DNA of 64,000 nucleotides, taken from positions 3,459,297 through 3,523,296 of the forward strand of contig NZ_CP019936.1 in NCBI RefSeq assembly GCF_002009425.1, in the 5' to 3' direction. This document shows, one piece after another, positions 3,916 to 28,378 of the stretch. Source of the stretch: Thiosocius teredinicola. Lineage in GTDB: Bacteria > Pseudomonadota > Gammaproteobacteria > Chromatiales > Chromatiaceae. Under the pieces are notes generated by a model that saw only the letters and a program-made list of their open reading frames with translations, ran no database searches and was not told the origin of the DNA. The stretch's first letter is position 1; every line of letters starts with the position of its first letter. The translations under genes and the position numbers were made by a program.

Positions 3916-3954
3916 ACTGACTTTTTGTATCAAGGACTTAGAAGGCCCAATTTG

Positions 3955-4890: not shown

Positions 4891-5041
4891 CCTTGAGATG
4901 GCACGAACCCCGAACCTTCATCGATAACCGTTCGATGCCGCGGGCGACCGCTGGGGTTTCACAAGCCGTCGACCGCTGGTGCACGCTCCTGCCCAGCAGC
5001 AGACGCTACGCCGTTATGGATTCGCAATAGAAAACCGAAAC

Positions 5042-6073: not shown

Positions 6074-6083
6074 GAATCCATGA

Positions 6084-7052: not shown

Positions 7053-7169
7053 CCGGGGCGCGCTGTGTTTAAACAAATTTGGATATGTACCGATCACTAC
7101 CTAACAGGCAATCAACGCTGCGCATCGCAAACGCGGCCTGAAGCAGTAGTAACGGGAGAACTCATCAAC

Positions 7170-8756
7170 GTGGTCATCGATTTCTCAGTCATCGAACAGT
7201 TCGAGGAAGGCAAGCCGTTCTTTCCACAGCACCTTCCGGTTTTCGCGAACTCACCGTCGCGCAACGTGGTGCTGCTCGAATTGTTGGTCGACTACCTGAA
7301 GAAGCGTGACGACGATGGCCCGGTGCGCATCCTCGAGATAGGCGCACGCGCCGGGGCTTCTGCGCTCGCATGGGTAGAAGGCATCAACACCCACAACCAC
7401 GGCTTGGGCGAGGTGCTGTGCGTGGATATGTGGTTCAAGCTCGGTCCACAGGACGACGTGTTCTTTTCGATCTTCCGGCACAACATCAAGGCCACCGATT
7501 CGCAAGACCTGGTGGTGCCGATCATCGGCGACAGCCAAAAGGTATTGCCTTCCCTGCCCCACGAGCACTTCGACCTGATCTATATCGACGGCGCCCATTG
7601 TTACTCGATCTGCACGACCGACATGGCCAATGCGAAACGGCTGATCAAACCCGGCGGCATCATCTGCGGTGACGATCTCGAAGTGCAATACAAAGACTGC
7701 GACACCACGCTGCTCGACAAGCTGAAAGAACAGGATGCGGCGATGGAACCCTCTCCCTGGCATCCCGGTGTCACCAAAGCGGTGTACGAAAACTTCGGTA
7801 CAGTGAAACCCTATCTCGGCGTGTGGGCCGTGCAGAAAGCTGAAGGCGACAGGTTCGACGTGATCGATGTCGAACAGGTACCGATCACGGCCGTACCGGC
7901 CTACTTTCCCGATTGGGCGGTCAATGTCGCCAAACGTGATCTGGGGCTGGACACATCACCCTCCGTGCTGGTCGAACACCATGTCGAATTCATTGCCGGC
8001 GCCACGCCTGCACCTGCGCTGAAGGCCGGTAACGGCGACGAACTCGCCGTCGTGGATTTCACTAGCGCAGCGACACCGACAGCGCCGATCTCACTCGGCG
8101 AGATCTCCGCCCTGCAAACGGATGCGACCGCGTGGACGATCGCCAGCGTGAACGGCGACCCGGAACTCTATCTGAGCCGCGACGCGCGCTGCGGCCTGAC
8201 GATCTCGGTACTGAACCCGAAAGGGACAACGGACATCGGCATCCAGATGCCAATCGACAGTATCGACGCTTGGCGCGACAAAGAGATCGAACTGCACGCC
8301 TGTCTGCGTACTGACGGCGCTGCGCAGCTCAATCTGTATGATGGCGTGCTCGGTTTCGGTGACAACGACGTGCCCGCAGATGCCACTTGGCAGACGGTAA
8401 GCTGGCGAACCTTCCTGCCGCAGGACGCGACATGCTTCTTTCCACAGATCCGACTACACGGTACACGTGGCGCGATCGCGCCCGGCACCCAGATATCGAT
8501 CGCCTGGTTGAAGATCGACACCACGCAACGTGACGCGTCGGTGGCACAGGTGGCAGACATGCACCTGCAGCGCGCATTGCACTACCTGGTTGGCGGCGCG
8601 TTCGACAAGGCTGGGAGCGCCATGGCCGATGCTGTCGCCCATTGTGTCGACGTCGAAGCCCTCGCTGCGAGTATCCAAGCCAACGGCTTCGTCGATCCGC
8701 TGTTCCGTTCACAGGCATTGGAGTTACTCAACGAACACAGCGCGATCTCGGCATAG
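7170..8756 (+). CDS. Class I SAM methyltransferase with C-terminal beta-sandwich-like domain
   Basis: A 528-residue protein. The SAM-binding loop EIGARAGAS is at residues 56-64 and the acidic second motif is YIDGAHCY near residue 140, as in the Methyltransf_24 type. This is followed by a partly helical link and, from about residue 310, a Thr/Asp-rich beta-strand region (ISVLNPKG, EIELHACLRTDG, WQTVSWRTFLPQ) that resembles carbohydrate-binding jelly rolls. The last 70 residues are helical. The GTG start at 7170 is chosen for its GGGAGA ribosome binding site; an ATG-less upstream extension to 7065 reads poorly. Likely role: O- or N-methylation of a glycan sugar in this cluster. The substrate is inferred from context only. 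Confidence 0.72.
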   Translation: MVIDFSVIEQFEEGKPFFPQHLPVFANSPSRNVVLLELLVDYLKKRDDDGPVRILEIGARAGASALAWVEGINTHNHGLGEVLCVDMWFKLGPQDDVFFSIFRHNIKATDSQDLVVPIIGDSQKVLPSLPHEHFDLIYIDGAHCYSICTTDMANAKRLIKPGGIICGDDLEVQYKDCDTTLLDKLKEQDAAMEPSPWHPGVTKAVYENFGTVKPYLGVWAVQKAEGDRFDVIDVEQVPITAVPAYFPDWAVNVAKRDLGLDTSPSVLVEHHVEFIAGATPAPALKAGNGDELAVVDFTSAATPTAPISLGEISALQTDATAWTIASVNGDPELYLSRDARCGLTISVLNPKGTTDIGIQMPIDSIDAWRDKEIELHACLRTDGAAQLNLYDGVLGFGDNDVPADATWQTVSWRTFLPQDATCFFPQIRLHGTRGAIAPGTQISIAWLKIDTTQRDASVAQVADMHLQRALHYLVGGAFDKAGSAMADAVAHCVDVEALAASIQANGFVDPLFRSQALELLNEHSAISA

Positions 8757-8825
8757 ATTGACGGTGCTCGCGATGCGCGCTGCAGGCATTCAATCGCGAA
8801 CCGCTCGTCCGGCAGCAAACGCGAT

Positions 8826-10007
8826 ATGGCACGCTTGACTGTTTTGATCGCGGCGCGCAACGCCGCCGAGACGATCCGCCGCGCGGTATCGTCCTGCGTC
8901 GATGAGCGCATCCCCATCTGTCTGGTCGACGACAATTCAACCGACAACACCGTTGAACTCGCACGCTCCGTTGGCGACGGCCTGCTCGAGGTTGTCGAGT
9001 GCGAAGCGCCGGGCGGCGTGGGCGCTGCACGACAGGCCGGACTGGACGCCGTGGATACACCCTATGCCGCTTGGCTCGATGCCGACGATGAGTGGATTCA
9101 CGGCCGCGCACAACGTGTCGAACAGGCACTCGATGCCGGTGCAGACGTGGTCTCCGACACCATCGAACTCTACGATGGGCGCTCGGGCAAGTTTCTCAGA
9201 TCGCTTCGCCCGCCTGCGTTCCTCCGCTCTACACCGTATGCCTGGCGCCTGTTCGAGCGCAACTACCTGCCGGGCGATACGCAGCTCGGTTTTCGTGTGG
9301 ACGCCTTCAGGCAAGCCGGTGGCTATGATCGCACCGTGTTCGGCCCCGAGAGCTATGACGTATTGCTACGCAGCGTCGCCAACGGTGCCCGTCTTGCCTA
9401 TCTCGACGAACCCGGCTATCGCATGCATGCATACCCCGACAGTGTCTCTCGTGACCTTGGCAGGCAACGCGCCGCGGTTCGATCGGTACTGCGTAAACAC
9501 GACTATGAGAATGTTCGTGCCGGCTGCCACGCGCAAGGCTGTGCACCTGCCGTTGCGCATTGGATTCTGTTGTCGATGGCCATGTTTCGTGAAGACTACG
9601 GAGCGGCCGCGCAGATGCTGGACAGGATTCAATCGGAGGTCGGCGCAAACGACATCGTCCTCGAGCCCGACGGACCCTTCCCCGTTGCGGAGTCATGGCG
9701 ACAGTTCTTCTATCGCGCAACCCTACTGTTGCTGACCAATGGCGATGCCGAACGTGCGGTGGACTACCTGCGCAGCGCCGAATCCCTCAGGCCGACCGCG
9801 GAAGGGGCAAACAATCTGGGCGTGGCGCTTCATCGGCTCGGCGACAACGCTGCATCTCGCGCCTGTTTTCTCGATGCACTGCAACGATTCGCGGGCTATC
9901 GCGATGCCTCGCTGAACCTGGCCGATCCCGACACTTGCACGATCACGACGCACTCGCTGCGACACCAGCCGAGTCGCTCGGAATATCACACCGAACTACC
10001 GGACTGA
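8826..10007 (+). CDS. GT2 family glycosyltransferase with TPR-like tail
   Basis: A 393-residue protein with a canonical GT2 N-terminus: LTVLIAARNAAETI, then ICLVDDNSTDNT, and the DADD metal motif at residues 85-88 (AAWLDADDEW). The last 90 residues form TPR-like helices (ERAVDYLRSAESLRPT, NNLGVALHRLGDN). It differs clearly from the tandem pair upstream and is closer to ordinary capsule or LPS GT2 enzymes. It closes the + strand half of the glycosylation island and converges on the UDP-xylose synthase gene. Confidence 0.85.
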   Translation: MARLTVLIAARNAAETIRRAVSSCVDERIPICLVDDNSTDNTVELARSVGDGLLEVVECEAPGGVGAARQAGLDAVDTPYAAWLDADDEWIHGRAQRVEQALDAGADVVSDTIELYDGRSGKFLRSLRPPAFLRSTPYAWRLFERNYLPGDTQLGFRVDAFRQAGGYDRTVFGPESYDVLLRSVANGARLAYLDEPGYRMHAYPDSVSRDLGRQRAAVRSVLRKHDYENVRAGCHAQGCAPAVAHWILLSMAMFREDYGAAAQMLDRIQSEVGANDIVLEPDGPFPVAESWRQFFYRATLLLLTNGDAERAVDYLRSAESLRPTAEGANNLGVALHRLGDNAASRACFLDALQRFAGYRDASLNLADPDTCTITTHSLRHQPSRSEYHTELPD

Positions 10008-10095
10008 TCTGCGTTACCTTGGTGGCTGCGCCGGATTGCAGCCGTCATCCGAAACTGAGCCGCCTCTGCTGAGGGCGCGCATTGGCTGTACCCTC

Positions 10096-11052
10096 CTACG
10101 CAGAGAAGGCGTTCTCGAAATAGTCGATCGTCTTTTTCAGGCCTTCTTCCAGCTCGGTGGTCGGTTCCCAATCGAGCAGCTCTTTGGCACGGCCGATATT
10201 GGGCTGACGCTGCCTGGGATCATCGGACGGCAAGGGACGAAACGCCATCGTCGATGACGATCCGGTCAATTCAATTATCTTCTCCGCCAATTGCTTCACT
10301 GTGTACTCGACCGGATTACCCAGGTTGATCGGTCCGATAACGTCGGCGGGCGACGCCATCAGGCGTATCAAGCCGTCGACCAGATCGTCGACGTAGCAGA
10401 ACGACCTTGTCTGCATGCCATCGCCGTACAGGGTGATCGGTTCGTTCTTCAGCGCCTGAACGATGAAGTTACTGACCACCCGGCCATCGTTGGGGTGCAT
10501 CCGCGGACCATAGGTGTTGAATATCCGCGCAACCTTGATCTCGAGGCCGTGCTGGCGGTGATAATCGAAAAACAGCGTTTCTGCGCAGCGCTTGCCCTCA
10601 TCGTAACAAGCGCGCTCGCCGATCGGGTTGACCCTGCCCCAGTACGATTCCTCTTGCGGATGCACTTCCGGATCGCCATACACTTCGCTGGTCGACGCCT
10701 GCAGAATGCGCGCTTTCACCCGCTTGGCCAGACCCAACATATTAATCGCCCCATGCACGCTGGTTTTGGTCGTCTGCACTGGATCGAACTGGTAGTGGAT
10801 CGGTGACGCCGGGCATGCCAGGTTGAAGATCTCGTCGACCTCGACATACAGCGGGAACGTCACATCGTGACGCATGAACTCAAACCGCGTCTCGCCGAGC
10901 ATGTGCGCGATATTCTCTTTGGTGCCGGTGTACATATTGTCCAGGCACAGTACGTCGTATCCTTTCTCCAGCAATCGCCCGCAAAGATGAGAGCCGAGAA
11001 AACCCGCACCACCGGTTACCAGAACACGCTTTGTCGTCGAATAGTTACGCAT
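10096..11052 (-). CDS. UDP-glucuronate decarboxylase (UDP-xylose synthase)
   Basis: Extended short-chain dehydrogenase of 318 residues that converts UDP-glucuronate to UDP-xylose with bound NAD. The NAD loop GGAGFLGS is at 14-21, [12 protein letters not shown] follows, the catalytic YxxxK is YDEGK near residue 150, and family hallmarks include [22 protein letters not shown] and [16 protein letters not shown]. Length fits bacterial UXS enzymes. It lies 109 bases after the end of the nonulosonic acid operon and may be transcribed with it. UDP-xylose would be a donor for one of the GT2 enzymes, so a pentose in the flagellar glycan is plausible. Confidence 0.92.
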
Positions 11053-11161
11053 AGTTTCCGTTAGAGTCGTTGCCGCAAGCGGCGGCGTTATTGTTGTTAT
11101 CGCAATAAGCGCTGTTCAGTGCCGGGATGCATTGAACCAGCTGCCGTCAACGACCGACGCC

Positions 11162-12039
11162 CTACCCACGCAAGCCCGGTTCGTTTAGAAGGCATTGTAT
11201 CGTCCAATCGAGGAATGGATAGCCCGCGGCCTCGGTTATCGCGATACCCCCGGTACGCGCGGATTCACGTCGATCAACAGCGGGCCATCTTCGCTGTCGA
11301 TGAACTGCATATTGACGATACCGCGAAACAGCATGGCGTTCGCCAACCGTTTGCATGCCGCCACCAGGTGCGGCGCATCGATGACGGTTCCCTCGATACA
11401 CTCCCCCGCGACCACCCGATCGCGGCGACGCGCGCAGAACGCCTGCGGTATGCCTTGATCGTCTACATAGCAATCGACGCTGACTTCAGGGCCATCGACC
11501 ATGCGCTGCGCCAACAGACCTCGCGTCGCGGCAGGGAGCTCCGCAAGGCTGCGAACGATCGTAACGTCTCTGGAGCCGGCGCCGAACCTGGGCTTGATCA
11601 CGGCGGGAAATCCCAACGATTCGATCTCGTCTCCGTTGCCCGACCAAGGCAGCCACGCCGGACAATCGACACCGACCTCTGCCGCACGCCGGTAGAGTGC
11701 AAACTTGTCGTGACAGCAGCCCAGGGCCGACATATCAGACAGCAACAACCGCGCATCGAGCGCGTTGTTGTCGGCTCGCTCTGCCCAGCCTGCAAGCTCT
11801 GCTTCCCTGACAGGCAGCACGGCAACGATATCCAGGTCTTCGAGCGCGGCATCGACGTCTGACCAGTAGGCTGCATGACCGAAAGGCGGCAGCGTTACGA
11901 ACGCATCCGCGAACTCGACTGCCGGGGCATTGGAATCCATGTCGGCAACAATCAGTTTGCCACCTCGCGATTGCATGGCATCGCGCATCCGACGCGCGAG
12001 ATAACGTTTGTTGCCGACACTGGGGATCAACAGATTCAC
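11162..12039 (-). pseudogene. ATP-grasp enzyme interrupted by a one-base frameshift
   Basis: ATP-grasp ligase of the carbamoyl-phosphate-synthase/PylC-like group. Motifs: NLLIPSVGNKRYL at the start, FPAVIKPRFGAGSRDV, VDGPEVSVDCYVDD, and the metal-binding end LLIDVNPRVPG. Translation then runs into a stop at 11236-11238. With one extra G in the five-G run at 11247-11251 (C run on the + strand), the frame continues as GGIAITEAAGYPFLDW to a stop at 11162, giving the normal domain end. The GTG at 12039 is the likely start, 7 bases after the HAD stop; an ATG at 12078 would overlap it. The enzyme would form an amide or acyl-phosphate bond and is last in the pse operon. It may be a true mutation or a sequencing indel. 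Confidence 0.78.
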
Positions 12040-12046
12040 AACGCGC

Positions 12047-12754
12047 TCACCGCCAAGGTCGCGATGCAACCGCTCCATCGAGCCACACGCACAGTTCGGT
12101 TACCTTGTCCAACGTGTCGTCTGCGGAGTAACGATCACCGGGCGGAGTGGCTGTTGCATGCTCGCCAGTCAGCACCCGCAACGTCCGCCAACCGCGTCTG
12201 CGCGCGCCGTAGAAGTCCTTGGCCGGATTGTCACCGACGTATAGCAGCTGTGATGCCGCAAGATCGAAGTGTTGCTCGAACCATGCGAACAATCGTTCAT
12301 CCGGTTTCTGCGTCGCTAGTTCATCGCTGAACAACAATGCATCCATGCCGGCATCCAATCCAAGGGCAGCGACCTTGTTGCGTTGAACCTGCGCCAAGCC
12401 ATCGGTCAACAGGCCCACGCGTTTGCTCGCACGCAGTTTCATCAACAAATCGTCGACGCCCGTATACAGTTCGATCTGCGGCACATGGGTGCGGAAGACC
12501 TCGATCAAGTCAGCTGCGGCGACCTGCTCGATACCCAGTCGCTGCAGGGCGTCATCGAACATCTTGCCGTACGAAGGTCCATTCTGCTGCAGAACGTCTT
12601 CGAGCGTCGCCAGTACGGTTTCGTAGTCCGCCAAGGCCCGCTCGGCAAGCCGGGATGCCACGGCACGAAAGCCGCTGCGCTTGAAGCTCACCTGCGGATA
12701 CAGGGTGTCGTCCAGGTCGAACACGATGCCCTTGATGGTATGTAGCAACGTCAT
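12047..12754 (-). CDS. HAD superfamily hydrolase (subfamily I)
   Basis: A 235-residue phosphatase-like protein. HAD motif I is VFDLDDTLYP with the nucleophile Asp at residue 13, motif II is LLTDG, motif III is around QKPDERLF, and motif IV is YVGDNPAKDFYGARR. The helical cap follows motif I, as in subfamily IA (nucleotidase or phosphoglycolate-phosphatase-like enzymes). The ATG overlaps the stop of the upstream gene (ATGA), which fixes the start. In the nonulosonic acid pathway a phosphatase can remove the 9-phosphate, but Pse synthesis does not need one, so the substrate may belong to the extra chemistry suggested by the ATP-grasp neighbour. Confidence 0.85.
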   Translation of the reverse strand: MTLLHTIKGIVFDLDDTLYPQVSFKRSGFRAVASRLAERALADYETVLATLEDVLQQNGPSYGKMFDDALQRLGIEQVAAADLIEVFRTHVPQIELYTGVDDLLMKLRASKRVGLLTDGLAQVQRNKVAALGLDAGMDALLFSDELATQKPDERLFAWFEQHFDLAASQLLYVGDNPAKDFYGARRRGWRTLRVLTGEHATATPPGDRYSADDTLDKVTELCVWLDGAVASRPWR

Positions 12755-14439
12755 GCCCAGGTTTTGCGCAACTCGGCAAGCCGCTGGACGATCGCCGGTG
12801 TACCGTCGGTCAGCTTCGGGGCGTCGGCCAGGCGTTCGTTGAGCGCTCCCTGTAATACCGATGCCAGGCCGCCGACATCGGCAACGATGTATTTGGGCAA
12901 TGCAACGGCCGCGTAGAAGGCCTCGGCATCGGCGCGGTGCAGCGCCGACAATGGCCAGGCAACCGGAAAGGTGCGCAGCGCCAAGGCCTCGTAAAAAGTC
13001 TGCCCGTAACCACTCAAGAACACCTTGCTTCTTGCCAGCAGTTCGGGAAAGCCCTCGCGAAAACCGGTCAATACCACCGCAGTCCAACCTTGCGCTGCCG
13101 CCAAGCGCGATACCGCGTCTCGTTCCACCTCATCGTGCAGATACACCAGCACATCGATGTCCTTGTCGATGTCCAGACCGATGTAACGGCGGATCTCGCG
13201 GCGAATAATGGCGAACTCCAAACCGGAGGCGACCGGCGGCATCGACAAAGCGGATTGCGCCGGCCGCCCCGTAATGCCGGGGCACACGATCAGGTCGGCC
13301 TCTGCCGCAGTGCTGTCCTCACGATCGATGACGACGACCGGACAATCTGCCGTCAAGCGTTCACGCCAGCCCGGCTGCAGATCCCTGCGCGCCGACAGGT
13401 CGACCACGACAAGATCGTGACCATGCGCAAGCTCGCTGAACGCTACCGAACTACGACTGCGGGGCGCGACCGTCGCCTGTCGACCAAGCGCGCCCCACAG
13501 CACGCGAAAACCGCAGGCCTCGACGGACTGCGCTGCATGTTCATCGTCCAACACGAAGGTCACCGGCCAGCCGAGACGCTCGACGACCTGCCCCGCGAGC
13601 TCCCGGCAACGCATCAGGTGTCCGTAGCCGAAAGGACCACCGGCATCGACAATGAATAGCACTTTGTGCACCGTTTCCACCAGGCGGCGCTGATGCACGT
13701 GGCTGTTGAGCGATCTGAGCAGCGGCTCCGCTTCGAGCAGTCCGACCACCGCCGGCAGATCGAATACCTTGCCTTCGGATTTCAAGCGCTCATGCAGCGT
13801 GTGCATGAATTCGAGATCCGCCCAGGTGTCGATACTCAGGCGATGCGGCTCGCCGTACACGGCCGTACTCAGTCGCACATCCAGCCGGGTGAAGGCATCC
13901 GGTCGCTGATAGATGACGGGAAACTGATGCTCGCGCAACTCGGGACGATCGGACATCGCATCGGCACGATGCCACGCCCGGCTGCGCGCCACATGCACGC
14001 CTTCGAGCAGGCTGACCCTGCCGCGTTCGTCGGGCAACATGCCGACATAGTCGGCCTGTGGCTCAGCACGCATCGCCGCGACCAGTTCGCCGACCGACGG
14101 ACCATGCACCAGCGGACAGTCGGCGCTGATCAGCAAGCAGATCTCGGCTGCGAAGCTTTGCGCGGCGTTGTGCAATCGTCCGACCACGTCATCGACCTCG
14201 CCCTCGTACCAGAACAGCGTCCAGCCACGTTCTTCGGCAAGCACTCTCAGGGGTTCGTTGTCTGGCTCGGCGACGGTGGCCAGCACGACCTGGTCCACTG
14301 CCTCGACTTCGGCGAGCTCAGACATGATGCGATCGAGCACGGACACATCGCCGATCGAACGTAGCTGTTTGCGTGGCAGGCGCGAAGAGCTGAGGCGCGT
14401 GACGACAAAGGCAACGGCTTTTTCCGTTGTCCCGCTCAT
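12751..14439 (-). CDS. Bifunctional SpsF/NeuA-type nucleotidyltransferase fused to PseG-type UDP-sugar hydrolase
   Basis: A 562-residue fusion. Residues 1-255 are a cytidylyltransferase-like domain (RLSSSRLPRKQL near residue 15, ATVAEPDNEPL, then LISADCPLV), the type that makes CMP-nonulosonic acid. Residues 258-562 match PseG, which removes UDP from the 2,4-diacetamido-altropyranose intermediate: GYGHLMRC at 271-278 carries the catalytic-type His, and SGYGQTFYEAL is the C-terminal UDP-binding segment. The start MSGTTEKAV overlaps pseI by 4 bases (ATGA), and the stop overlaps the HAD gene by 4. Joining the step before and the step after PseI on one chain is notable. The N-terminal half is closer to SpsF than to classic PseF. 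Confidence 0.85.
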   Translation of the reverse strand: MSGTTEKAVAFVVTRLSSSRLPRKQLRSIGDVSVLDRIMSELAEVEAVDQVVLATVAEPDNEPLRVLAEERGWTLFWYEGEVDDVVGRLHNAAQSFAAEICLLISADCPLVHGPSVGELVAAMRAEPQADYVGMLPDERGRVSLLEGVHVARSRAWHRADAMSDRPELREHQFPVIYQRPDAFTRLDVRLSTAVYGEPHRLSIDTWADLEFMHTLHERLKSEGKVFDLPAVVGLLEAEPLLRSLNSHVHQRRLVETVHKVLFIVDAGGPFGYGHLMRCRELAGQVVERLGWPVTFVLDDEHAAQSVEACGFRVLWGALGRQATVAPRSRSSVAFSELAHGHDLVVVDLSARRDLQPGWRERLTADCPVVVIDREDSTAAEADLIVCPGITGRPAQSALSMPPVASGLEFAIIRREIRRYIGLDIDKDIDVLVYLHDEVERDAVSRLAAAQGWTAVVLTGFREGFPELLARSKVFLSGYGQTFYEALALRTFPVAWPLSALHRADAEAFYAAVALPKYIVADVGGLASVLQGALNERLADAPKLTDGTPAIVQRLAELRKTWA

Positions 14440-15527
14440 TCGCCGGCCCCGCCGACCTCGTCGAGCAGTTCCCACGCGATCGGCGTACCCTTCTTGATCG
14501 CAACCCGTGCGCGGCAGCCGAGTACCCGCTGCAACTCGCGCGGATGCAGACCGAGACCGGGCCGCACCGAGCGCACCTGCGCGTCGGTGATCACCGAGCC
14601 GGCCGGGATATCGGCGACCGCATACAACGAACGCCGGAAAGCCTTTTGCGAATGCTCTACCGGCGCCATCTCGCGGCGCGGCTGGCCGATCGCCAGCGCC
14701 GCCTCGCGGCAAGCGCGCGCCATGTTCGAGAACTCATCCGGGTCGAGCGAAAACGCGGCATCGACCGCGCCATCAGCGCGATCCAGCGTGAAGTGCTTTT
14801 CCACCAGACAGGCACCGAGCGCCACGGCCGCGATCGGTACGGCTATGCCCAGCGTGTGATCGGACAGCCCGACCGGCACGCGATAACGCTCCATCAGCAT
14901 CGGGATGGTCGCCAGATCGGCCTCGGCGATCGGTGTCGGGTAGCCGCTGGTACAGTGCAACAGGATGAACGGTGTCTTCGGATAGCGCTTGAGTACCGAG
15001 ACCGCCTCGTCGATCTCATCCAGCGATGCAATGCCGGTCGACAACACCATCGGCTTGCCGGTGGCGGCAACGCGCTCGATCAAACCATGATCGACCAGTT
15101 CAAACGACGCAATCTTGTAGGCCGGACAATCGAGCGACTCCAACAGATCGACCGCGGTCGGGTCGAACGGCGAGCTGAACATCGGCACGCCGTGAGCACG
15201 CGCCCGCGCGAACAACGCCTCGTGCCACTCCCATGGCGTATGCGCCTCTGCGTACAGTTCGTACAGCGTTCGGCCCTGCCACAGACCCGACTCGATCCTG
15301 AACTCGGGGCCGTCATGATCGACGGTGATCGTATCCGGCCGATACGTTTGGATCTTGACCAGGTCGGCGCCCGCCGCAACCGCGGCATCCACCAGCGCCA
15401 GCGCGCGCTCGATGTCGCCGCCATGGTTTCCCGACAGCTCCGCAATCAGCAGCGGCGGCTGCCCGGGGCCGCAGAGCTTGCCCGCCAGCATCACCGGCTC
15501 AACGGCGAACTTTTCAGTCGGGCTCAT
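14436..15527 (-). CDS. pseI: Pseudaminic acid synthase (NeuB family)
   Basis: A 363-residue NeuB-type synthase that condenses phosphoenolpyruvate with a 6-deoxy-2,4-diamino hexose to give the nine-carbon sugar. The barrel shows IAELSGNHGGD (34-38), VKIQTYRPDTIT, SSPFDPTAVDLLE, YKIASFEL, STGIASLDEI, LLHCTSGYP, GLSDHTLG and the metal/substrate EKHFTLDR. The C-terminal SAF (antifreeze-like) domain begins about residue 290 (SLYAVADIPAGSVIT). The SELSGNH and DGAVDAAFSLDP wording is closer to PseI than to sialic acid NeuB. The ATG shares one base with the stop of the preceding gene (TGATG). Confidence 0.9.
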   Translation of the reverse strand: MSPTEKFAVEPVMLAGKLCGPGQPPLLIAELSGNHGGDIERALALVDAAVAAGADLVKIQTYRPDTITVDHDGPEFRIESGLWQGRTLYELYAEAHTPWEWHEALFARARAHGVPMFSSPFDPTAVDLLESLDCPAYKIASFELVDHGLIERVAATGKPMVLSTGIASLDEIDEAVSVLKRYPKTPFILLHCTSGYPTPIAEADLATIPMLMERYRVPVGLSDHTLGIAVPIAAVALGACLVEKHFTLDRADGAVDAAFSLDPDEFSNMARACREAALAIGQPRREMAPVEHSQKAFRRSLYAVADIPAGSVITDAQVRSVRPGLGLHPRELQRVLGCRARVAIKKGTPIAWELLDEVGGAGE

Positions 15528-16654
15528 CAATCCAGTTCCAGCCAGGTACCGATGATCTGGCGCGTACCTTCCTCATCGGTCCAGTAGTACGCCAGCAATA
15601 CTCGGCCATCGCGAAGCTGCACCGCCCACGGATAACCCAGGTCGGCACACAGGCCGTCATCGCGAATGACGATCTCTTGCACATCGTCCGGGTTGGATGC
15701 CGGGCTATCGAGCAGGCGCACACGGATACCATAGGGCTCATCGCGGTAACCGTAGCTGAGCAGCACGCGGCCATCGTTGAGCACCAGCGGATGAAAGGGA
15801 TGACCGACCAGGTCGTGCAGCACAGCGGGTTGCCAGGTGATGCCGTCGTCCGAGCGGCTGGTCGCCAGTCGACCATCTGCATCGGCGGTGCGCATGAAGC
15901 ACACCAAACCGCCCTGCCCATCTTCGCACAGGGCCGGTTCCTGATAGGTCACCTGCTGCTCGGGATCGACCGCGATGCGGCCTGTGTAGTGCCAGGTATT
16001 ACCCTGGTCACCGCTGACGAACAAGGCGCACCCGGTCTCGACACCGCTGTAGACGGGCAACAGAATTTCGTCACCGCGGCGTAACGCCTGACCGCGGATC
16101 GGGCCGACCAGGATCTTCAACGATCCCTCGCGCAGCGGGCCGCCGAAACCGCCATCCGGTTGCAGGTAGCGATGGTGCGCCAACCAGCGTCCGGGCTCAC
16201 GCTCGCGCAGGCCGGTGTGACCACCCCAGAACAGGTAGCGGCAACCCGGATGGCGTTCATCCGGCGGTTTCTTGGCCAACAGCATCTCGGTGACGTCGGA
16301 CGGCAACGGATACCACGACATCGACGCCAGAAAAACACGATCGTTTTCCACCAGCAGCAGCGAAGGATCCTGATCGCCCGCTTCCGGGTCACACGGCATC
16401 AGGTCGAGGTCGCCGACCGGATGTTCTCCGCTGGGATCAAGTTCCATCAAGGCGATATGCGAGCGGCTGTCGATGTGATCCATGCGGTTGATCGGATCCA
16501 TTTCGTGCTTGCGATCCTCGGGCACCAGCCACAGGCCATTGCGGGCGCGGCGAAACGCCAGCAAGAGATTGTCGTCGCTGAAGCGCACGATGCTGGGAAA
16601 GGCTGCATGAAACCGCATCGCCCGGTACAAAACCTTGTGCTGCAAAACCTTCAT
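15527..16654 (-). CDS. Sialidase-like beta-propeller protein inside the nonulosonic acid operon
   Basis: A 375-residue protein without signal peptide. Two Asp-box (BNR) motifs are visible, SGDQGNTWHY near residue 211 and SRSDDGITW near 268, and several propeller-blade starts (HPLVLNDGRVLLSYGYRD, WAVQLRDGRVLLAYYW). This is the exo-alpha-sialidase fold. The usual xRIP segment is replaced by FHAAFPSIVRF and a classic Arg triad cannot be assigned by eye, so hydrolase activity is uncertain. It sits between pseC and pseI, sharing a stop/start base with pseI. It may bind or hydrolyse pseudaminic-acid glycosides or be a non-catalytic sugar-binding protein. Confidence 0.75.
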   Translation of the reverse strand: MKVLQHKVLYRAMRFHAAFPSIVRFSDDNLLLAFRRARNGLWLVPEDRKHEMDPINRMDHIDSRSHIALMELDPSGEHPVGDLDLMPCDPEAGDQDPSLLLVENDRVFLASMSWYPLPSDVTEMLLAKKPPDERHPGCRYLFWGGHTGLREREPGRWLAHHRYLQPDGGFGGPLREGSLKILVGPIRGQALRRGDEILLPVYSGVETGCALFVSGDQGNTWHYTGRIAVDPEQQVTYQEPALCEDGQGGLVCFMRTADADGRLATSRSDDGITWQPAVLHDLVGHPFHPLVLNDGRVLLSYGYRDEPYGIRVRLLDSPASNPDDVQEIVIRDDGLCADLGYPWAVQLRDGRVLLAYYWTDEEGTRQIIGTWLELD

Positions 16655-16734
16655 CGAAAATGCGTCAAACCCTTGCGGATAGCTGGCGGTTCAGTCGCCG
16701 CCATCGTTGCCTGACCATCGTGCCGCACGCGTGC

Positions 16735-19228
<2,494 letters not shown>

Positions 19229-21432: not shown

Positions 21433-22056
21433 ATGATCCGCCGACCGCCAGACTGTCACACCGGGTCACCGGCCTTTCCGGCGCTGGCCGAATTGCGCGA
21501 ACAATTGCTCAGCCGACGCCAGTTTCTGCTACGCGCAGCCGGCGGCTCACTGGCCGTGTTGTTCAACGCCGGCGCGACAGCCAGGTCGTCGGCCCAAGAG
21601 GATTCGGGCCAGGCGCCCTCGTCTCCAGACCCCTGGCCGACGCTCGATGCCGTCACAGCGCATCTGCTGCCAAGTGAAACCGACAGCCCCGGCGCCAAAG
21701 AGATCAACGCTGTCGGCTATCTGCGCTTCGTCGTCAACGACCCGCACGTCGACAGCGACGAGCGTGCGTTCGTCACCCAGGGCGTTATCTGGTTGAACCA
21801 GCTTTCGCACGACACGCACCACAAGACGTTCAGCGAACTCGGTTTCGATGACAAAGAATCGATGCTGCGCAGGATCGCCGCCAGCGAGGCCGGCGAGAAC
21901 TGGTTGTCGACGCTGCTCACCTACCTGTTCGAAGCATTGCTGACGGCGCCGGCCTACGGCGGCAACCCTGACGGTATCGGCTGGCGCTGGCTGCAATACG
22001 TGCCCGGCTTTCCCCTGCCAGATCGCAATACCATCTACTCCGAGCTGCCGCTATGA
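21433..22056 (+). CDS. Gluconate 2-dehydrogenase subunit 3 family protein (Tat-exported)
   Basis: A 207-residue small subunit of a membrane-bound GMC-type dehydrogenase. The twin-arginine motif SRRQFLLRAAGG is followed by a short hydrophobic stretch. The mature part shows the family pattern LDAVTAHLLPSETDSPGAKE, YLRFVVNDP, and the C-terminal AYGGNPDGIGWRWLQYVPG. Its stop overlaps the next gene by 4 bases (ATGA). This subunit carries the FAD-binding large subunit across the membrane through the Tat system, as in gluconate and sorbitol dehydrogenases. No cytochrome c subunit is adjacent. Confidence 0.88.
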   Translation: MIRRPPDCHTGSPAFPALAELREQLLSRRQFLLRAAGGSLAVLFNAGATARSSAQEDSGQAPSSPDPWPTLDAVTAHLLPSETDSPGAKEINAVGYLRFVVNDPHVDSDERAFVTQGVIWLNQLSHDTHHKTFSELGFDDKESMLRRIAASEAGENWLSTLLTYLFEALLTAPAYGGNPDGIGWRWLQYVPGFPLPDRNTIYSELPL

Positions 22057-23753
22057 GTCGCGATTTCGATGTCTGCATCGTCGGCAGTGGCGCGGGTGCC
22101 GGTCCGATCGCGCATCAGCTCGCGCAAGCCGGGTTTTCAGTCGTCGTGCTCGAGAAGGGGCCGTGGCTGAAAGAACAGCACTTCACCAAGGATGAACTGG
22201 CGTGCTGCAGGCGCAATGTCTACACGCCTTCGTTGGCCGATGAGCAGCACGTGATCGAATCGCAGGGCGACGACGATCGTTGGCGCGCCGAGACCTCCGT
22301 CGAATCCGGTTGGAACTTTTGGAACGGCAACTGCGTCGGTGGTTCGAGCAACTTCATGAGCGGTTACTTTCACCGCCTCAAACCGTTCGACTTCAAACTG
22401 CTGAGCACATTCGGGCCCATCGATGGCGCGAATATCGCCGACTGGCCGATCGAGTACGTCGATCTCGAACCGTATTACGACAAGGTGGAACGCCTGGTCG
22501 GCGTCTCCGGCAAGGCAGAACCGCAGGCCGGCGAATCACTGCGCTCGTCACCCGACTTCCCTTATCCACCGGTCGCGGAACACCCGATATCGGCCGACAT
22601 AGACAAAGCGGCCGACAAGCTCGGCATTCATGCGCTGCGCGTACCGCGCGCCATCCTGTCGCAACCGGCGATGCAGCGACGTTCCTGTGAATACTCGGGT
22701 TTCTGCGGCAGCTTCGGCTGTTCGAGCGGCGCCAAAGGCAGCGCACGCGCCGCCCTGCTCGATCATGCGGTCGCCACCGGTCGCTGCGAGATACGTCCAC
22801 ACGCCAAGGTATTCCGTATCAGTACCGGCAACGATGGACGCATCACCTCGGTCGATTATTTCGATCGCGCAGGCAAAATAATAAGAGTCGATGCACGCAT
22901 CTATGTCGTCGCCTGCCAGGCCATCGAGAGCAGCCGCCTGCTGCTGGCGTCGACCGGAGCGAAACACCCGCACGGCCTGGGCAATCGCAACGCCCAAGTC
23001 GGGCGCAACCTGCTGTTCTCCGCGGGCGGTGCCGGTAGCGGCGACTTCGCGTTCGCCGACTACACAGCCGAAAAGGTCGATCAACTGCGCGTTGTCGGAC
23101 CGTTCGTCAATCGCGCACTCGACGACTGGTACAGCTTTGATGATCCGCGGCTCGGCCGCGTGAAAGGCGGCATTGTCGAGTTCCTGTGGGATCATCCAAA
23201 CGCCGTCACGCGCGCACAGAACGCCAAGTGGCGCGACGGCGAACTGGTCTGGGGAAAACCGCTGAAACGCCAGCTCGAGACCTGGTTTCGCACCGACCGC
23301 ACGCTCAACTTCGAGGTCTTCAACGACTGGTTGCCGACCGACGACTGTTACGTGTCTCTCGACAATGCGGTTAAGGATCGCTGGGGAAAGGCAGTGGCCA
23401 AGATCCGCGTCGGCGCACATCCGCACGACCTGCACATCGGCCGCGCGCTCGCTGAGAAAGGTGAACGGCTGCTGCGCGAACTCGGCGCCCGGCGCATCAG
23501 CTCATCGGTCGGTTCCTCACCACCACCCAACCTGCAGGCCGGCGGCTGCCGTTTCGGTAACGATGCCGCCACCTCCGTGCTGGACGCCGATTGCCGCAGT
23601 CACGAGGTCGACAACCTGTTCGTCAGCGACGGCAGCTTCATGCCCACCGGTGGCAGCGTGCCCTACACGTTTACGATCTATGCCAACAGCTTCCGCGTCG
23701 CCGATCGCATCGTCGCCCAACTGGGTGGAGCGCGGAGCGATTCGACAGCCTGA
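22053..23753 (+). CDS. GMC family FAD-dependent oxidoreductase (large subunit)
   Basis: A 566-residue flavoprotein of the glucose-methanol-choline family. The FAD loop is VGSGAGAGPIAHQLA at residues 10-24, then GGSSNFMSGYFHRL, a Cys-rich stretch SCEYSGFCGSFGCSSGAKGS typical of gluconate-dehydrogenase-like members, and the C-terminal LFVSDGSFMPTGGSVPYTFTIYANSFRVADR. The usual catalytic His region is altered: the family motif with HxxG reads here as AGGCRFGNDAATSVLD. It oxidises an unknown alcohol or sugar in the periplasm, with export provided by the partner subunit. Confidence 0.9.
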   Translation: MSRDFDVCIVGSGAGAGPIAHQLAQAGFSVVVLEKGPWLKEQHFTKDELACCRRNVYTPSLADEQHVIESQGDDDRWRAETSVESGWNFWNGNCVGGSSNFMSGYFHRLKPFDFKLLSTFGPIDGANIADWPIEYVDLEPYYDKVERLVGVSGKAEPQAGESLRSSPDFPYPPVAEHPISADIDKAADKLGIHALRVPRAILSQPAMQRRSCEYSGFCGSFGCSSGAKGSARAALLDHAVATGRCEIRPHAKVFRISTGNDGRITSVDYFDRAGKIIRVDARIYVVACQAIESSRLLLASTGAKHPHGLGNRNAQVGRNLLFSAGGAGSGDFAFADYTAEKVDQLRVVGPFVNRALDDWYSFDDPRLGRVKGGIVEFLWDHPNAVTRAQNAKWRDGELVWGKPLKRQLETWFRTDRTLNFEVFNDWLPTDDCYVSLDNAVKDRWGKAVAKIRVGAHPHDLHIGRALAEKGERLLRELGARRISSSVGSSPPPNLQAGGCRFGNDAATSVLDADCRSHEVDNLFVSDGSFMPTGGSVPYTFTIYANSFRVADRIVAQLGGARSDSTA

Positions 23754-23762
23754 GTCGCCAAT

Positions 23763-24536
23763 TCAGATCGGCGATTGAAAGCTGAGCGACGGCCGCAAAC
23801 CGCTGACGTGGGTTTTCAGCTCATCCCACAGTGACTGGTAGGCGCGACCGGCCGGCGAGCGCGGCGCATAGTCGGTTACCGGGCGACGCTCCAAACCCAT
23901 GCGCTCGACTTCCGTCGCGTAAGGGATTGCCGCATCGAGTACCGTGCAACGTGGATCACCGGCGGCTGCAATCACATCCTGATGCATGCGCTTGCGCCGA
24001 TCGACCATTGAGTAGAACGCATACGCCGGCACCTTGAGCTGGTGGCCTTCGATGAAGTCGAGTACCTGGGTCAATGTGCGCAACGACAAGGTCGTGGGTA
24101 TGGTCGGCAACAACAAGGCGTCGGCGGCACGAAAGATGTTTTCCGACACCAGCGAGATGCTCGGCGGACAATCGAGTATCACGAGGTCGTATTTTTCCGA
24201 CAGCGGACGCAGCAGCTTGAGCAGGCGCACGATCGGTTTCTTGCTCTCACCCAACAGCAGATCCATGTTGCGGTAAGAGAAATCCGACGGCAGCAGGTCC
24301 AGGTTCGGATAATCCGATCCCTTCAACACCTCGTCGAGATCGCGCTTTCCTTTGAGCACCTTGGTGGTGCCCTTCACTTTCGGTTTTACACGCAGGTAAT
24401 AGGTGGCTGCCGCCTGTGGGTCGAGATCCCAGATCACGGTGCGCAGACCGCTCGATGCCGCCAGATGCGCCAGGTTGACCGCGGTGGCCGTTTTGCCGAC
24501 CCCGCCCTTGATGTTGTAGACACCGAAAATTTTCAT
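23763..24536 (-). CDS. ParA/MinD family ATPase paired with a CHAD protein
   Basis: A 257-residue orphan ParA. The deviant Walker A is KGGVGKT at residues 10-16, switch I is DLDPQAA, and Walker B is YDLVILDCPPSISLVSE. The C-terminal part has SMVDRRKRMHQDV, as in ParA-type proteins that position cargo. No parB or parS-like gene lies next to it. Instead its ATG overlaps the stop of a CHAD-domain gene (ATGA), so the two are translated together. ParA-like ATPases form gradients on the nucleoid and space chromosomes, carboxysomes, chemoreceptor clusters or granules. The CHAD partner points to polyphosphate granules as the cargo. Confidence 0.9.
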   Translation of the reverse strand: MKIFGVYNIKGGVGKTATAVNLAHLAASSGLRTVIWDLDPQAAATYYLRVKPKVKGTTKVLKGKRDLDEVLKGSDYPNLDLLPSDFSYRNMDLLLGESKKPIVRLLKLLRPLSEKYDLVILDCPPSISLVSENIFRAADALLLPTIPTTLSLRTLTQVLDFIEGHQLKVPAYAFYSMVDRRKRMHQDVIAAAGDPRCTVLDAAIPYATEVERMGLERRPVTDYAPRSPAGRAYQSLWDELKTHVSGLRPSLSFQSPI

Positions 24537-26113
24537 CCGAGCACCTCCGCCTGTTCCTTGAACAGGCGTTTGCAACGCGCCCGGTTTTCCTTCGAATCGA
24601 AATGCTCGAAACGCTCGGCGAAACGCTCATGCGCCAACTGCTGGCGACGCAGAAGGTCCGCAATCAGACCGCCGATGGCGAGCACGGTCGGCAGGTGCCC
24701 GGGGTCATCCTGGTTCAGCTCGGCGGCGAACGCCCTGAGCTTGTCGGCCTGCACCACCAGGTCCTGGTAGTCGCCGAGATTGTCGAGCAGATCCTTGAGT
24801 ACGCGGATGATCGCTTTGACATCCTTGGCGTCGTACAGGCTGCGGAAGAACTCGATCAGGTAGCGCAGCTTTTTGCAGTCCTTGCGCAACTCGTGCATTG
24901 CCTCGGGTGGATCGTCGGGGGTCACGGCACGCCCTGCCTTGAGCGTCTTGCGGTACATCTTCCAGATACGCTGCGACGCGACCTGGCCGATCGGCAGGTC
25001 GGCGAACCAGCCCGCCTGGTCGAGCGGGAGATCGCCCTCGAGCACATTGCGCCAATCATCGAGCAGGGTCTTCATCTCGGCCGAACCCAACTTGCGTTTG
25101 AGTCTCGCCTGCTCGGTCTGATGGGCCGCTCTGAGGTGTTCTTCCAAGGCGTCGAGGTCACCGGCCATCACGGTCGGCAGACTGGCACGGTAGTGCGGTA
25201 GTTCGAGCAGAAAGACGTCGAGGTCGCGCACCGGGCCGGTGATCTGGCCGACCCAGGCGAAGCGTGTCTTGTACTCGGCGACCACCGCATCCGGCAATAC
25301 GCGCTTGATCTGTGACAGTGCCGAGCGCGTACGGCGCGTCGCAACGCGCAGGTCGTGCAGAAACTCCGAGTCGAGATCGGCGCGCGCACCGGGGATGTTG
25401 CGTTCCAGCGTATCGAGCAGGGTTAGCAGAATCTTGCGCACCGCCTTGATCGCCATCTGCTCGGCGCGCAGCGACAGCTTGAGCTTGGAACTGTAGTCGC
25501 CGGCCTCACGCCCCACCGACGCCATCGCCTCGTCGAACAGGCACTCCGGCGCCGATGGCCATTCGAACTCGTTGGCGAGTTTTTCCGCCAAGGCATCGAA
25601 GTCGCCCTCGTAACCCTTGAGCGACAGCAGTCGCAGGCGCGGCCACAGCGCCCGCGGTTCCTTGATCTCGGGCGCTGTGCTGTGCAACTGCAGATTCTGC
25701 AGTCGTACCACGGTCTTCGCGTCGTCATTCAGCAGGCGCATCTCGGTGACTTCGCCGTCGATGGTCGCCAACGGCAACAGCACGCGCATATCCAGCAGAC
25801 GCAGCACCCTGTTCTTCAGGTCACCTTCGGGCAATTCGGCCGGCCACGCCGGTTCGCCGATCAACTCAACGGGCTCGACGACATCGACGCCATCGGACGA
25901 GCGCAGGCGCAGCAGGCTGCCTTGCACCGTGCTGATTCGGCTCAAACGCAATCCGGCCGCGTGCAGGCGCCAGTCGAAACTGTCATAGAAGGTCAGCGAA
26001 AAACGGGCAGAATCGTCGACCAGGCAGTGAGACTCGCCGCCGAGCTGTTTGATCAGGCGTGGAAGACGAAAATCGTGAGGCAGCAGGAAACCGCGTGGGC
26101 TTGGGTCATTCAT
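24533..26113 (-). CDS. CHAD domain protein with N-terminal CYTH-like region
   Basis: A 526-residue protein. Residues 1-210 form a beta-rich, CYTH-like region (FYDSFDWRLHAAGLRLSR, LRLLSLKGYEG), and residues 220-510 form the helical CHAD domain with its conserved His/Arg/Lys pattern (FLHDLRVATRRTRSAL, RDLDVFLLELPHY, MHELRKDCKKLRYLIEF, LKDLLDNLGDYQDL). CHAD proteins bind polyphosphate and coat polyphosphate granules. The CYTH half may bind triphosphates, but the ExExK signature is not evident. It is co-translated with a ParA ATPase, which suggests granule positioning. Confidence 0.87.
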   Translation of the reverse strand: MNDPSPRGFLLPHDFRLPRLIKQLGGESHCLVDDSARFSLTFYDSFDWRLHAAGLRLSRISTVQGSLLRLRSSDGVDVVEPVELIGEPAWPAELPEGDLKNRVLRLLDMRVLLPLATIDGEVTEMRLLNDDAKTVVRLQNLQLHSTAPEIKEPRALWPRLRLLSLKGYEGDFDALAEKLANEFEWPSAPECLFDEAMASVGREAGDYSSKLKLSLRAEQMAIKAVRKILLTLLDTLERNIPGARADLDSEFLHDLRVATRRTRSALSQIKRVLPDAVVAEYKTRFAWVGQITGPVRDLDVFLLELPHYRASLPTVMAGDLDALEEHLRAAHQTEQARLKRKLGSAEMKTLLDDWRNVLEGDLPLDQAGWFADLPIGQVASQRIWKMYRKTLKAGRAVTPDDPPEAMHELRKDCKKLRYLIEFFRSLYDAKDVKAIIRVLKDLLDNLGDYQDLVVQADKLRAFAAELNQDDPGHLPTVLAIGGLIADLLRRQQLAHERFAERFEHFDSKENRARCKRLFKEQAEVLG

Positions 26114-26431: not shown

Positions 26432-28378
26432 ATGTTCAAACCGACACTGATCGCCAGTTCGCTGGTGGCTGTGCTGACGGCCCCGCTGCTCCAAGCGGAA
26501 ACCAACTCGCCGCAGCCGTATCAGTATCCTCAGCATCCCCCGACCGCTATGCCGCCCTGGACACAGGGCCAACCGATGCAGGCACCCGGATTGCCGGATT
26601 GGGTGATCGAACGTCGTGCGCAACTGGGCATCACCGAGGCGCCGGCGACCGCCGCACCCAGCGCAGTCCCGCAAAAACCCGAAGCACCGCAACCGCCGGC
26701 GCGTCCGGACGCCCCGGAACTGCCGGATTGGGTCAAACCGCACCGCGCCCAGATCGAAAGCCCGACACCTCCCACGCCACCGGAACGTCCGCAGAAGCAG
26801 CCGCTGCCGGATTGGGTGAAACAGCATCGTTCGCAGATGCGGGCACCTGACGCGCCGGGGGCTCAGCAACCGGCGCAGAGACCGGATTGGGTACTCGAGC
26901 CGCCGGCCGCGCCTGAGCGCCCACAACCGCCGGCATTCGGTGACAAACCACAAAAGCCGGAAACCCCGGAATGGGTGGCGAAGCAGCGCGAGCAGATGCA
27001 GCCGCCCGCCATGCCGCAACCCCCGCAGCCGCCGGCAGCGGGCGACAAGCCACAGCAACCGGAAGCACCTGAATGGGTAGCGCAACAACGCGCGCAGGCA
27101 CCGGCCAGGCCAGAACGGCCCCAACCGCCACAGCGTAGCGAGTTGCCGCCGAAACCGGAGAAACCCGATTGGGCGACACAACCGCGAGCCGGCATCCCGC
27201 ATGTGACGCCCGAGCGGCCGCAACCCCCGCAACCCGAAGAACGGCCAGCCAGACCGGAACGGCCCGAGCGGCCGGAGCCGCCGCAGGCACGCGAGATGCC
27301 CGAGCGGCCGCCGGCGCCGGCGTGGATTGCGCAGCGCCCCGAAGGTCTGCAGGCGGCGCCGTTCGCCGAACCCTACGCACTGCCGGCAAATCCGCCGGAG
27401 ATGCAGCTGCCTGAGTCGCAGATGCCGGTACCGCAGACCTATTTGGCACCCGGCTACGCGCCGTGGGGTCATGCACCCTACGGCGGCGCGGGCTACCCCT
27501 ACGGTGGTTGGGGCGGACCTTGGAACAGCGGTTGGGGTGGACCGTGGAACAGTGGCTGGGGCAACGGCTGGGGGCCGAGCTACGGCGGCTGGGGCAACAA
27601 CTGGATGCCGTGGGGCAATAGCTGGGGCAACGGTTGGGGCAACAACTGGTGGCCGGGCGGTAGCGGCTGGAACGATGGCTACGGCAGCGGCTGGGGTGAC
27701 AGCTACGGTAGCGGCTGGGGTGACGGTGCCGGCGATGCCGCTGGCGAGCTCGACTTCAGCTTCGCCATGCGCGGGCGCGCCGACGCCGATATGCGCGGCT
27801 ACGGCTACGGCGATGGTTACGGCTACGGACGCGGCTACGGTCACAGCTACGACGGTTACTACCCTTACCCGCCCGCATTGATACCACCGCCCCCGGTCGT
27901 CGACGAACCGAGCGAAGCGCCGCAGCCGACCGGCGACAACGGCAATGGTGACAGTGACAGTGACGGCGTGGCCGATGCATCCGACCTGTGCCCAAACTCA
28001 CGCCCCGGTACCACGGTCGATGCGCTTGGCTGCGAGAATGACGCGCGCATCGTGTTGCGCGGTGTGAACTTCAAGACCGATTCCGACGAACTGACCTCGG
28101 AATCGCTGTCGATTCTCGACGGCGTCTCGAAAACACTGGTCGCCAATCCGGACGTCAAGGTGATGGTTGCCGGGCACACCGACAGTGACGGTGACGACGC
28201 CTACAACAAGGACCTGTCGCAACGTCGCGCACAGAGCGTCGTCAAATACCTGGTGACCCAAGGCGTCACGCCGCAGAACCTCACGGCCCAGGGTTTCGGC
28301 GAAGAGCAGCCGATGGCCGACAACGAAACGCCGGAAGGCAAGGCCCAGAACCGACGCGTCGAACTCAACCGTCAGTAA
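26432..28378 (+). CDS. OmpA-family protein with Pro-rich DWV repeats and a Gly/Trp/Tyr-rich segment
   Basis: A 648-residue exported protein. A signal peptide covers residues 1-22. Residues 30-310 are Pro/Gln/Arg-rich with eight spaced copies of a P-[DEA]-W-[VIA] unit (starting near 55, 98, 126, 151, 179, 213, 245 and 297), several followed by a basic R/K-x-Q tail. Residues 340-480 are Gly/Trp/Asn/Tyr-rich (WGGPWNSGWGNGWG, then GYGYGDGYGYGRGYG). Then comes an Asp-rich, calcium-type segment DSDSDGVADASDLCPNS and a C-terminal OmpA peptidoglycan-binding domain (FKTDSDELTSES, AGHTDSDGDDAYN, LSQRRAQSV, KAQNRRVEL). It probably links an extended repetitive structure to the cell wall. The Gly/Tyr stretch recalls sulfur globule proteins. 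Confidence 0.82.
   Translation: MFKPTLIASSLVAVLTAPLLQAETNSPQPYQYPQHPPTAMPPWTQGQPMQAPGLPDWVIERRAQLGITEAPATAAPSAVPQKPEAPQPPARPDAPELPDWVKPHRAQIESPTPPTPPERPQKQPLPDWVKQHRSQMRAPDAPGAQQPAQRPDWVLEPPAAPERPQPPAFGDKPQKPETPEWVAKQREQMQPPAMPQPPQPPAAGDKPQQPEAPEWVAQQRAQAPARPERPQPPQRSELPPKPEKPDWATQPRAGIPHVTPERPQPPQPEERPARPERPERPEPPQAREMPERPPAPAWIAQRPEGLQAAPFAEPYALPANPPEMQLPESQMPVPQTYLAPGYAPWGHAPYGGAGYPYGGWGGPWNSGWGGPWNSGWGNGWGPSYGGWGNNWMPWGNSWGNGWGNNWWPGGSGWNDGYGSGWGDSYGSGWGDGAGDAAGELDFSFAMRGRADADMRGYGYGDGYGYGRGYGHSYDGYYPYPPALIPPPPVVDEPSEAPQPTGDNGNGDSDSDGVADASDLCPNSRPGTTVDALGCENDARIVLRGVNFKTDSDELTSESLSILDGVSKTLVANPDVKVMVAGHTDSDGDDAYNKDLSQRRAQSVVKYLVTQGVTPQNLTAQGFGEEQPMADNETPEGKAQNRRVELNRQ

Follow-up and report, generated by a model that had tools for sequence, protein, structure and literature searches.

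The locus

The window analysed here, the whole stretch of 64,000 nucleotides at positions 3,459,297-3,523,296 of NZ_CP019936.1 (Thiosocius teredinicola), carries a pair of genes that encode a CHAD-domain protein and a ParA-type ATPase. All coordinates of the locus are window positions.

24533..26113, minus strand: gene of the CHAD protein, 526 amino acids, with a degenerate CYTH/TTM-like half and a CHAD domain (Pfam CHAD E-value 1.3e-60; AlphaFold2, Foldseek)
23763..24536, minus strand: gene of the ParA-type ATPase, 257 amino acids (AAA_31 E-value 2.1e-34; solved-structure matches headed by ParA and Soj, McdA included)
24533..24536, minus strand: ATGA stop/start overlap of the CHAD and ParA genes, read from the sequence

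The overlap consists of the TGA stop codon of the CHAD gene (24535-24533) and the ATG start codon of the ParA gene (24536-24534). Both the placement of the two genes and their coupling are as described in the original prediction. The ParA frame runs from this ATG to its stop at 23763, while a mechanically listed open reading frame of 270 residues with a TTG start exceeds the conserved start. Of 24 loci for which both genes are listed, 16 show the same four-base overlap, the window counted among them. In seven more the spacing varies between a 23-base overlap and a gap of 48 bases, and in one (L048) 16.5 kb separate the genes. That locus belongs to a genome of the same genus (G003), and its insert of about 16.5 kb (1633-18138) holds frames of 1146, 1176 and 1528 residues. 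No fusion of ParA and CHAD in one reading frame occurs among the loci searched.

The marks of a ParABS partition locus, an adjacent ParB gene and a parS site, are not seen here: no ParB-like protein is present among the four neighbouring proteins scanned, the remaining genes of the window lying outside that scan, and the 64-kb window contains no parS-like site within three mismatches of the consensus. Within this scope the ParA can rightly be called an orphan, as it had been. At its 3′ side the pair is followed by a converging GMC oxidoreductase gene (22053-23753) and at its 5′ side by a divergent gene of the OmpA type (26432-28378, plus strand). The frame of the latter combines proline/tryptophan-rich repeats with an OmpA domain (residues 547-641), and its residues 406-482 match a sulphur globule protein. 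A promoter and terminator scan yielded solely a weak promoter-like site on the minus strand (26346-26318), which is not used further.

The ParA ATPase

Two nucleotide-binding motifs of the ATPase are located as follows.

24489..24509, minus strand: deviant Walker A motif KGGVGKT (ParA residues 10-16), invariant in the 20-row alignment A1
24159..24176, minus strand: Walker B motif LDCPPS (ParA residues 121-126), from alignments

The Walker A′ motif DLDPQ is also kept and, like LDCPPS, is invariant or nearly so at key positions of alignment A1, which completes the motif set of the ParA/MinD (deviant Walker A) ATPases. The fold agrees with this assignment, the AlphaFold2 model (predicted local distance difference test score, pLDDT, 82.3) finding Soj and ParA as its top Foldseek matches. 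The McdA structures 6non, 6noo and 6nop are among the structural matches, distant and behind ParA and Soj, and BcsQ is a further distant match. Conserved basic stretches are the KPKVKGG loop and RRKR, the latter aligning near the DPR arginine of a Soj-like paralogue, and the C-terminal tail is unlike that of the MinD-like paralogue of the genome. Sites of these two kinds, DNA-binding arginines and membrane-binding C-terminal tails, distinguish nucleoid ParA from membrane MinD proteins. AAA_31 matches in the genome number 14 in all, one of them below the cut-off, and a second, Soj-like ParA is present (L224, named from its sequence).

The CHAD protein

Three features of the partner protein bear on its function.

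24734..25432, minus strand: CHAD domain (residues 228-460), from Pfam and the match to the polyphosphate complex 6qva (template modelling, TM, score 0.94 by target length, 35% identity)
25334..25357, minus strand: polyphosphate-contact motif H253, R256 and R260, contacts predicted by alignment to CtCHAD
25514..26113, minus strand: N-terminal CYTH/triphosphate-tunnel-like domain (residues 1-200), which bears DSFDWRL and lacks ExExK, from model strands, Foldseek and alignment

The AlphaFold2 model of the 526-residue protein has a pLDDT of 91.7, and it is to the CHAD half that Foldseek matches 6qva, the C. tepidum CHAD protein (CtCHAD) with bound polyphosphate (polyP). Binding by CtCHAD is reported, in the part of the source available, to be weakened by mutation of His253, Arg256, Arg260, Arg296, Arg418/Tyr419, Arg438 and Lys441 (PMC6537752). 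The equivalent residues are kept in the window protein (H253, R256, R260, R296, R417, Y418, R437 and K440, by alignment), which thus has both the CHAD fold and the basic contact residues of the polyP-binding class to which it had been assigned; binding itself is predicted from sequence. The same fold and contact residues are those of CtCHAD, PptA and the R. eutropha CHAD proteins. Unlike these, for which the available text mentions no ATPase partner, the window protein is encoded in a gene coupled to a ParA gene.

The N-terminal half, overlooked in the original prediction, is a degenerate CYTH-like domain. Residues 1-164 are strand-rich in the model, and CYTH/TTM structures with the tunnel fold are found among the Foldseek matches at TM scores by target of up to 0.61; their placement on this half follows from length and strands, as the aligned range is not printed by Foldseek. 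The polyphosphatase YgiF (5a60) likewise has a CYTH half followed by a CHAD half, and Foldseek aligns it over 490 columns, though the two superpose poorly (TM 0.34 by target). In contrast to YgiF, ParA-linked proteins are devoid of the metal-binding motif ExExK. The window protein carries DSFDWRL instead, and ExExK occurs in none of the 72 linked proteins whose N-terminal half is complete, 63 of which have a D[ST]xD motif. (These 72 derive from 100 CHAD matches at 104 loci, the other 28 being short or cut by the locus end and left uncounted.) Unlinked CHAD proteins with a full half have ExExK in 11 of 21 cases, drawn from 23 long CHAD loci: three from relatives and 20 out of the 29 such loci that the class has. 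Pfam CYTH is detected in none of the 25 proteins in the family alignment at E ≤ 1 (21 are ParA-linked, one comes from a split pair and three are unlinked) and in 13 of 20 unlinked proteins, so that motif loss tracks the family. Since the CYTH-like half has no ExExK, the CHAD partner of ParA may be a non-catalytic adaptor. Five of the 43 linked ParAs in the class have as their partner a short CHAD protein (301-325 residues) without any CYTH-like half, which points to the CHAD domain, and hence polyP, as the common link of the pairs.

The two domains are joined by a highly conserved linker, GRxPxDYSSKL (residues 201-211, window 25481-25513), modelled with a confidence of 78, below its surroundings. 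It was considered as a ParA-binding motif and set aside, as it seems to sit where the consensus of unlinked proteins has SKAxRG, a correspondence drawn without direct alignment, and may be structural.

Conservation of the pair

The adjacency of ParA and CHAD genes is far from chance. In a near set of 56 genomes, which consists of the window's genome and relatives of it, matches to the ParA query (E ≤ 1e-20) fall into two clearly distinct groups: 25 subfamily ParAs from 23 genomes (48-100% identity) and 25 paralogues (28-38%). A CHAD gene lies directly upstream on the same strand at 23 of the 25 subfamily ParAs, the window's included, versus none of the 25 paralogues, which is more than chance would produce. 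The exceptions are the split pair of G003 and a second ParA copy without CHAD in G010. Among 369 genomes of the organism's class, a ParA profile (E ≤ 1e-45) finds 58 ParAs in 57 genomes, of which 43, in 42 genomes, are directly downstream of CHAD. A CHAD gene is present in 50 of the 57 ParA-positive versus 70 of the 312 ParA-negative genomes once a broken stretch in G193 is discounted (Fisher p ~6e-21, computed with 71 and ignoring kinship).

A scan of public genomes gives at least 582 stretches encoding a ParA relative (tblastn E ≤ 1e-3), and among the best 80 named loci, which were kept, CHAD is right upstream of ParA in 58, across several phyla. This may be a lower count: L125 and L127 have short CHADs that Pfam detects and the CHAD profile used did not, and three of the 22 CHAD-negative loci have less than 800 bases of upstream sequence. 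Many records of this set are metagenome bins, single ones possibly misassigned, and some overlap with the near and class genomes. Carriers of the pair include Sedimenticola, Thiodiazotropha, Methylotuvimicrobium buryatense, Methylomonas lenta, Nitrosomonas, Nitrotoga and Geoalkalibacter as well as Actinomycetota, among them Microthrix and Solirubrobacter. In line with the original prediction, the pair is conserved rather than rare.

On a quick tree of 147 rows, which carries long-branch warnings, nine changes suffice to explain the CHAD label, compared with 38.1 on average after shuffling; in a supported group of 128 rows, 102 are CHAD-linked. ParA and CHAD distances in 99 linked pairs correlate with r 0.79, and 0.66 for distant pairs, the maximum of 500 shuffles being 0.19; shared descent accounts for part of this correlation. 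In 75 of the 99 pairs a close neighbour is common to both proteins.

ParA loci without an adjacent CHAD gene

A diverged CHAD gene hidden beside the CHAD-less class ParAs was sought and discarded, as no neighbour scanned at 13 of the 15 loci matches CHAD (L117 and L120 lie outside the scan). The neighbours at these 13 loci comprise PmbA/TldD, sigma-54 regulators, AMP-binding enzymes, TerB-DnaJ, PPK1 and others; three belong to no family. Throughout the analysis, simple gene calls served to pick proteins of GC-rich loci for Pfam. In L122 (1407-2282) and L123 (1407-2276) the TerB-DnaJ protein is found between PhoH and ParA, at the place of CHAD in related loci.

Within the 128-row group of the tree, a methanotroph branch of 20 rows contains 19 unlinked ones. 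Of 13 methanotroph genomes searched in which ParA has no CHAD beside it, 12 encode a CHAD frame of 504-529 residues elsewhere. This retention of a long CHAD may speak for a partnership that goes beyond co-transcription. Beyond these, L157 is an unlinked case with a CHAD gene elsewhere and L216 one with none. At L170 (5787-8294), L163 (5793-8297) and similar methanotroph loci, all with CHAD elsewhere, a carbohydrate (glycogen-type) phosphorylase gene directly follows the CHAD-less ParA, as called by Pfam on L170 and by similarity at the other loci; this is another storage-polymer enzyme.

Polyphosphate genes

Within about 5.5 kb around ParA at 138 loci, some sharing a genome, PPK1 is found 8 times, a SixA-like phosphatase 15, PhoH 6 and PepN 16 times. 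The clearest cases are L184, with the gene order ppk1-CHAD-ParA; L220, where the gene of a separate, ExExK-bearing CYTH protein stands between ppk1 and CHAD-ParA; and L111. At L111 ParA starts 8 bases after ppk1 with no CHAD at the locus, and the only CHAD match in that genome is short and broken. The ParA of one CHAD-ParA pair is followed by a frame (G042:C174:4007-5446) that holds two PPK2 domains. The window's genome encodes PPK1 and PPK2, both elsewhere, and across the near set PPK2 is present in 23 of 23 ParA-bearing versus 22 of 33 other genomes.

The ParA-CHAD pairing is already in print for Acidithiobacillus, where the same kind of gene pair stands beside ppk in a folD-ppk-parA-CHAD cluster; the available parts of the reports treat it under copper resistance or cAMP and contain no positioning proposal (PMC10892726, PMC6416229). 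In contrast to the linked proteins described here, CYTH active-site residues are reported, in the part available, to be kept there (PMC6416229).

A candidate positioning system for polyphosphate granules

As ATP dimers, ParA-type proteins bind the nucleoid, and a cargo-bound partner releases them. By analogy, a CHAD protein acting as the ParA partner with polyP granules as cargo would be the most economical reading of the pair, and that the two genes constitute a ParA-based positioning system for these granules is, on balance, probable. The CHAD protein would coat the granule, contact ATP-bound ParA dimers on the nucleoid and set off ATP hydrolysis locally; granules would travel up the ParA gradient, keep apart and be divided between the daughter cells. 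The CYTH-like half would act as a binding module, for ParA, the polymer end or both, and not as an enzyme. The fuller version of this proposal, a dedicated and widespread segregation system in which a ParA subfamily works with a cargo adaptor made from a tunnel enzyme minus its active site, a docking module on CHAD, is finely balanced and leans slightly towards doubt.

The closest parallel is carboxysome positioning by McdA and McdB, where a ParA-fold ATPase also has a partner gene and McdA is among the structural matches. The system proposed here differs in that McdA is a distant match, the partner is a folded CYTH-like/CHAD protein without a basic N-terminal tail and the proposed cargo is polyP. 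A positively charged disordered N-terminus is reported for partners of A/D ATPases in the available part of a study (PMC10241942). Such a basic N-terminus was looked for on the CHAD protein and is missing. With it absent, the ParA contact would have to differ from the usual one, candidate sites being the often basic C-terminal tails and the CYTH-like half. The original prediction of a ParA-like ATPase in an McdAB-like system is thus supported in part, by the conserved pair, the polyP residues and the intact ParA fold and nucleotide motifs; the charged disordered N-terminus reported for known ParA partners is not among these features, and the sequences give no sign of positioning itself. AlgP, PhaM and PhaF affect the spacing of storage granules on the nucleoid, the role proposed here; in contrast to the present pair they are DNA-binding proteins, with no ParA ATPase mentioned in the available text (PMC9239181, PMC13052382).

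Several observations weigh against granule positioning. The first 20 residues of 25 CHAD proteins are charged -4 to +3, negative in 17, some starts being uncertain. Subfamily ParAs of the class are without an adjacent CHAD gene in 15 of 58 cases, and 7 of the 57 ParA-positive genomes have no intact CHAD gene at all. Linked-type proteins without ExExK are also found away from ParA (e.g., L243, L244 and L251). PPK1 was not found near ParA in 130 of the 138 loci scanned, the window's own included, nor is it enriched in ParA-bearing genomes of the near set (14 of 23 versus 21 of 33 others), and none turned up in two ParA-bearing genomes whose completeness is rated at 100%. The support for positioning comes from sequence and structural models.

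An unlikely alternative is that polyP-loaded CHAD protein regulates a ParA acting on the chromosome or on division, the granules being signal and not cargo. The direction of action cannot be read from the gene pair alone, granule formation in Pseudomonas is reportedly (by a paper's title) linked to cell-cycle exit, and the other, Soj-like ParA of the genome frees the paired one for another role. Against such cell-cycle control stand the lack of a ParB-like protein among the four scanned neighbours and of a parS-like site in the window, together with the pattern of H. neapolitanus, where each cargo is reported to have one ATPase acting via a specific partner (PMC10241942, as far as available). 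Decidedly unlikely is a static tether, in which ParA would hold CHAD-coated granules on DNA in the manner of PhaM or AlgP with no gradient or ATP-driven movement. The conserved basic stretches of ParA would fit it, as would the established placement factors for polyP and polyhydroxybutyrate, which are DNA-binding proteins whose ATP dependence is given as unknown in the available text (PMC13052382). However, Walker A, A′ and B are all kept, hence ATP hydrolysis is probably used by ParA.

BcsQ is a ParA-type accessory of cellulose synthase, and a similar role, with ParA assembling or regulating a polyP enzyme complex and CHAD recruiting the substrate, is suggested by the distant BcsQ match, by the ParA next to PPK1 at L111 and by the two-domain PPK2 in G042. 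This is very unlikely, as PPK1 is near ParA in just 8 of 138 loci and Soj and ParA, not BcsQ, lead the structural matches. A mere housekeeping operon, co-expressed with no physical or functional partnership, is hardly credible: ATGA overlaps are common in bacteria and some subfamily ParAs stand alone, but the link is absent from all 25 paralogues, is maintained across phyla with long and short CHAD proteins alike, and both genes are retained in genomes where they are unlinked.

Implications

Granule positioning by ParA and CHAD would address an open question, the placement and inheritance of polyP granules in bacteria, for which the pair is a concrete two-gene candidate. To our knowledge no ATP-driven positioning system for these granules has been described earlier. 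No proposal of a ParA-CHAD granule system is found among the literature matches listed, most subscription journals and bioRxiv preprints lying outside the coverage, and the main text of a study on multiple ParA/MinD ATPases contains neither 'polyphosphate' nor 'CHAD' by term counts. In the available part of a 2025 review, AlgP is the sole named placement protein for polyP, and whether energy is expended is left to be seen (PMC13052382). Deletions of the Ralstonia CHAD proteins and of ygiF are reported to have no apparent phenotype (PMC6537752, available in part), and CHAD proteins would gain a role if the proposal is true.

The pair is found in methanotroph and nitrifier isolates as well as in Actinomycetota such as Microthrix, which accumulates polyP in sludge, so that the question becomes directly testable. 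If the proposal is true, the pair would be the first known ATP-driven system for positioning polyP granules and would give a dead CYTH domain a role in the choice of cargo.
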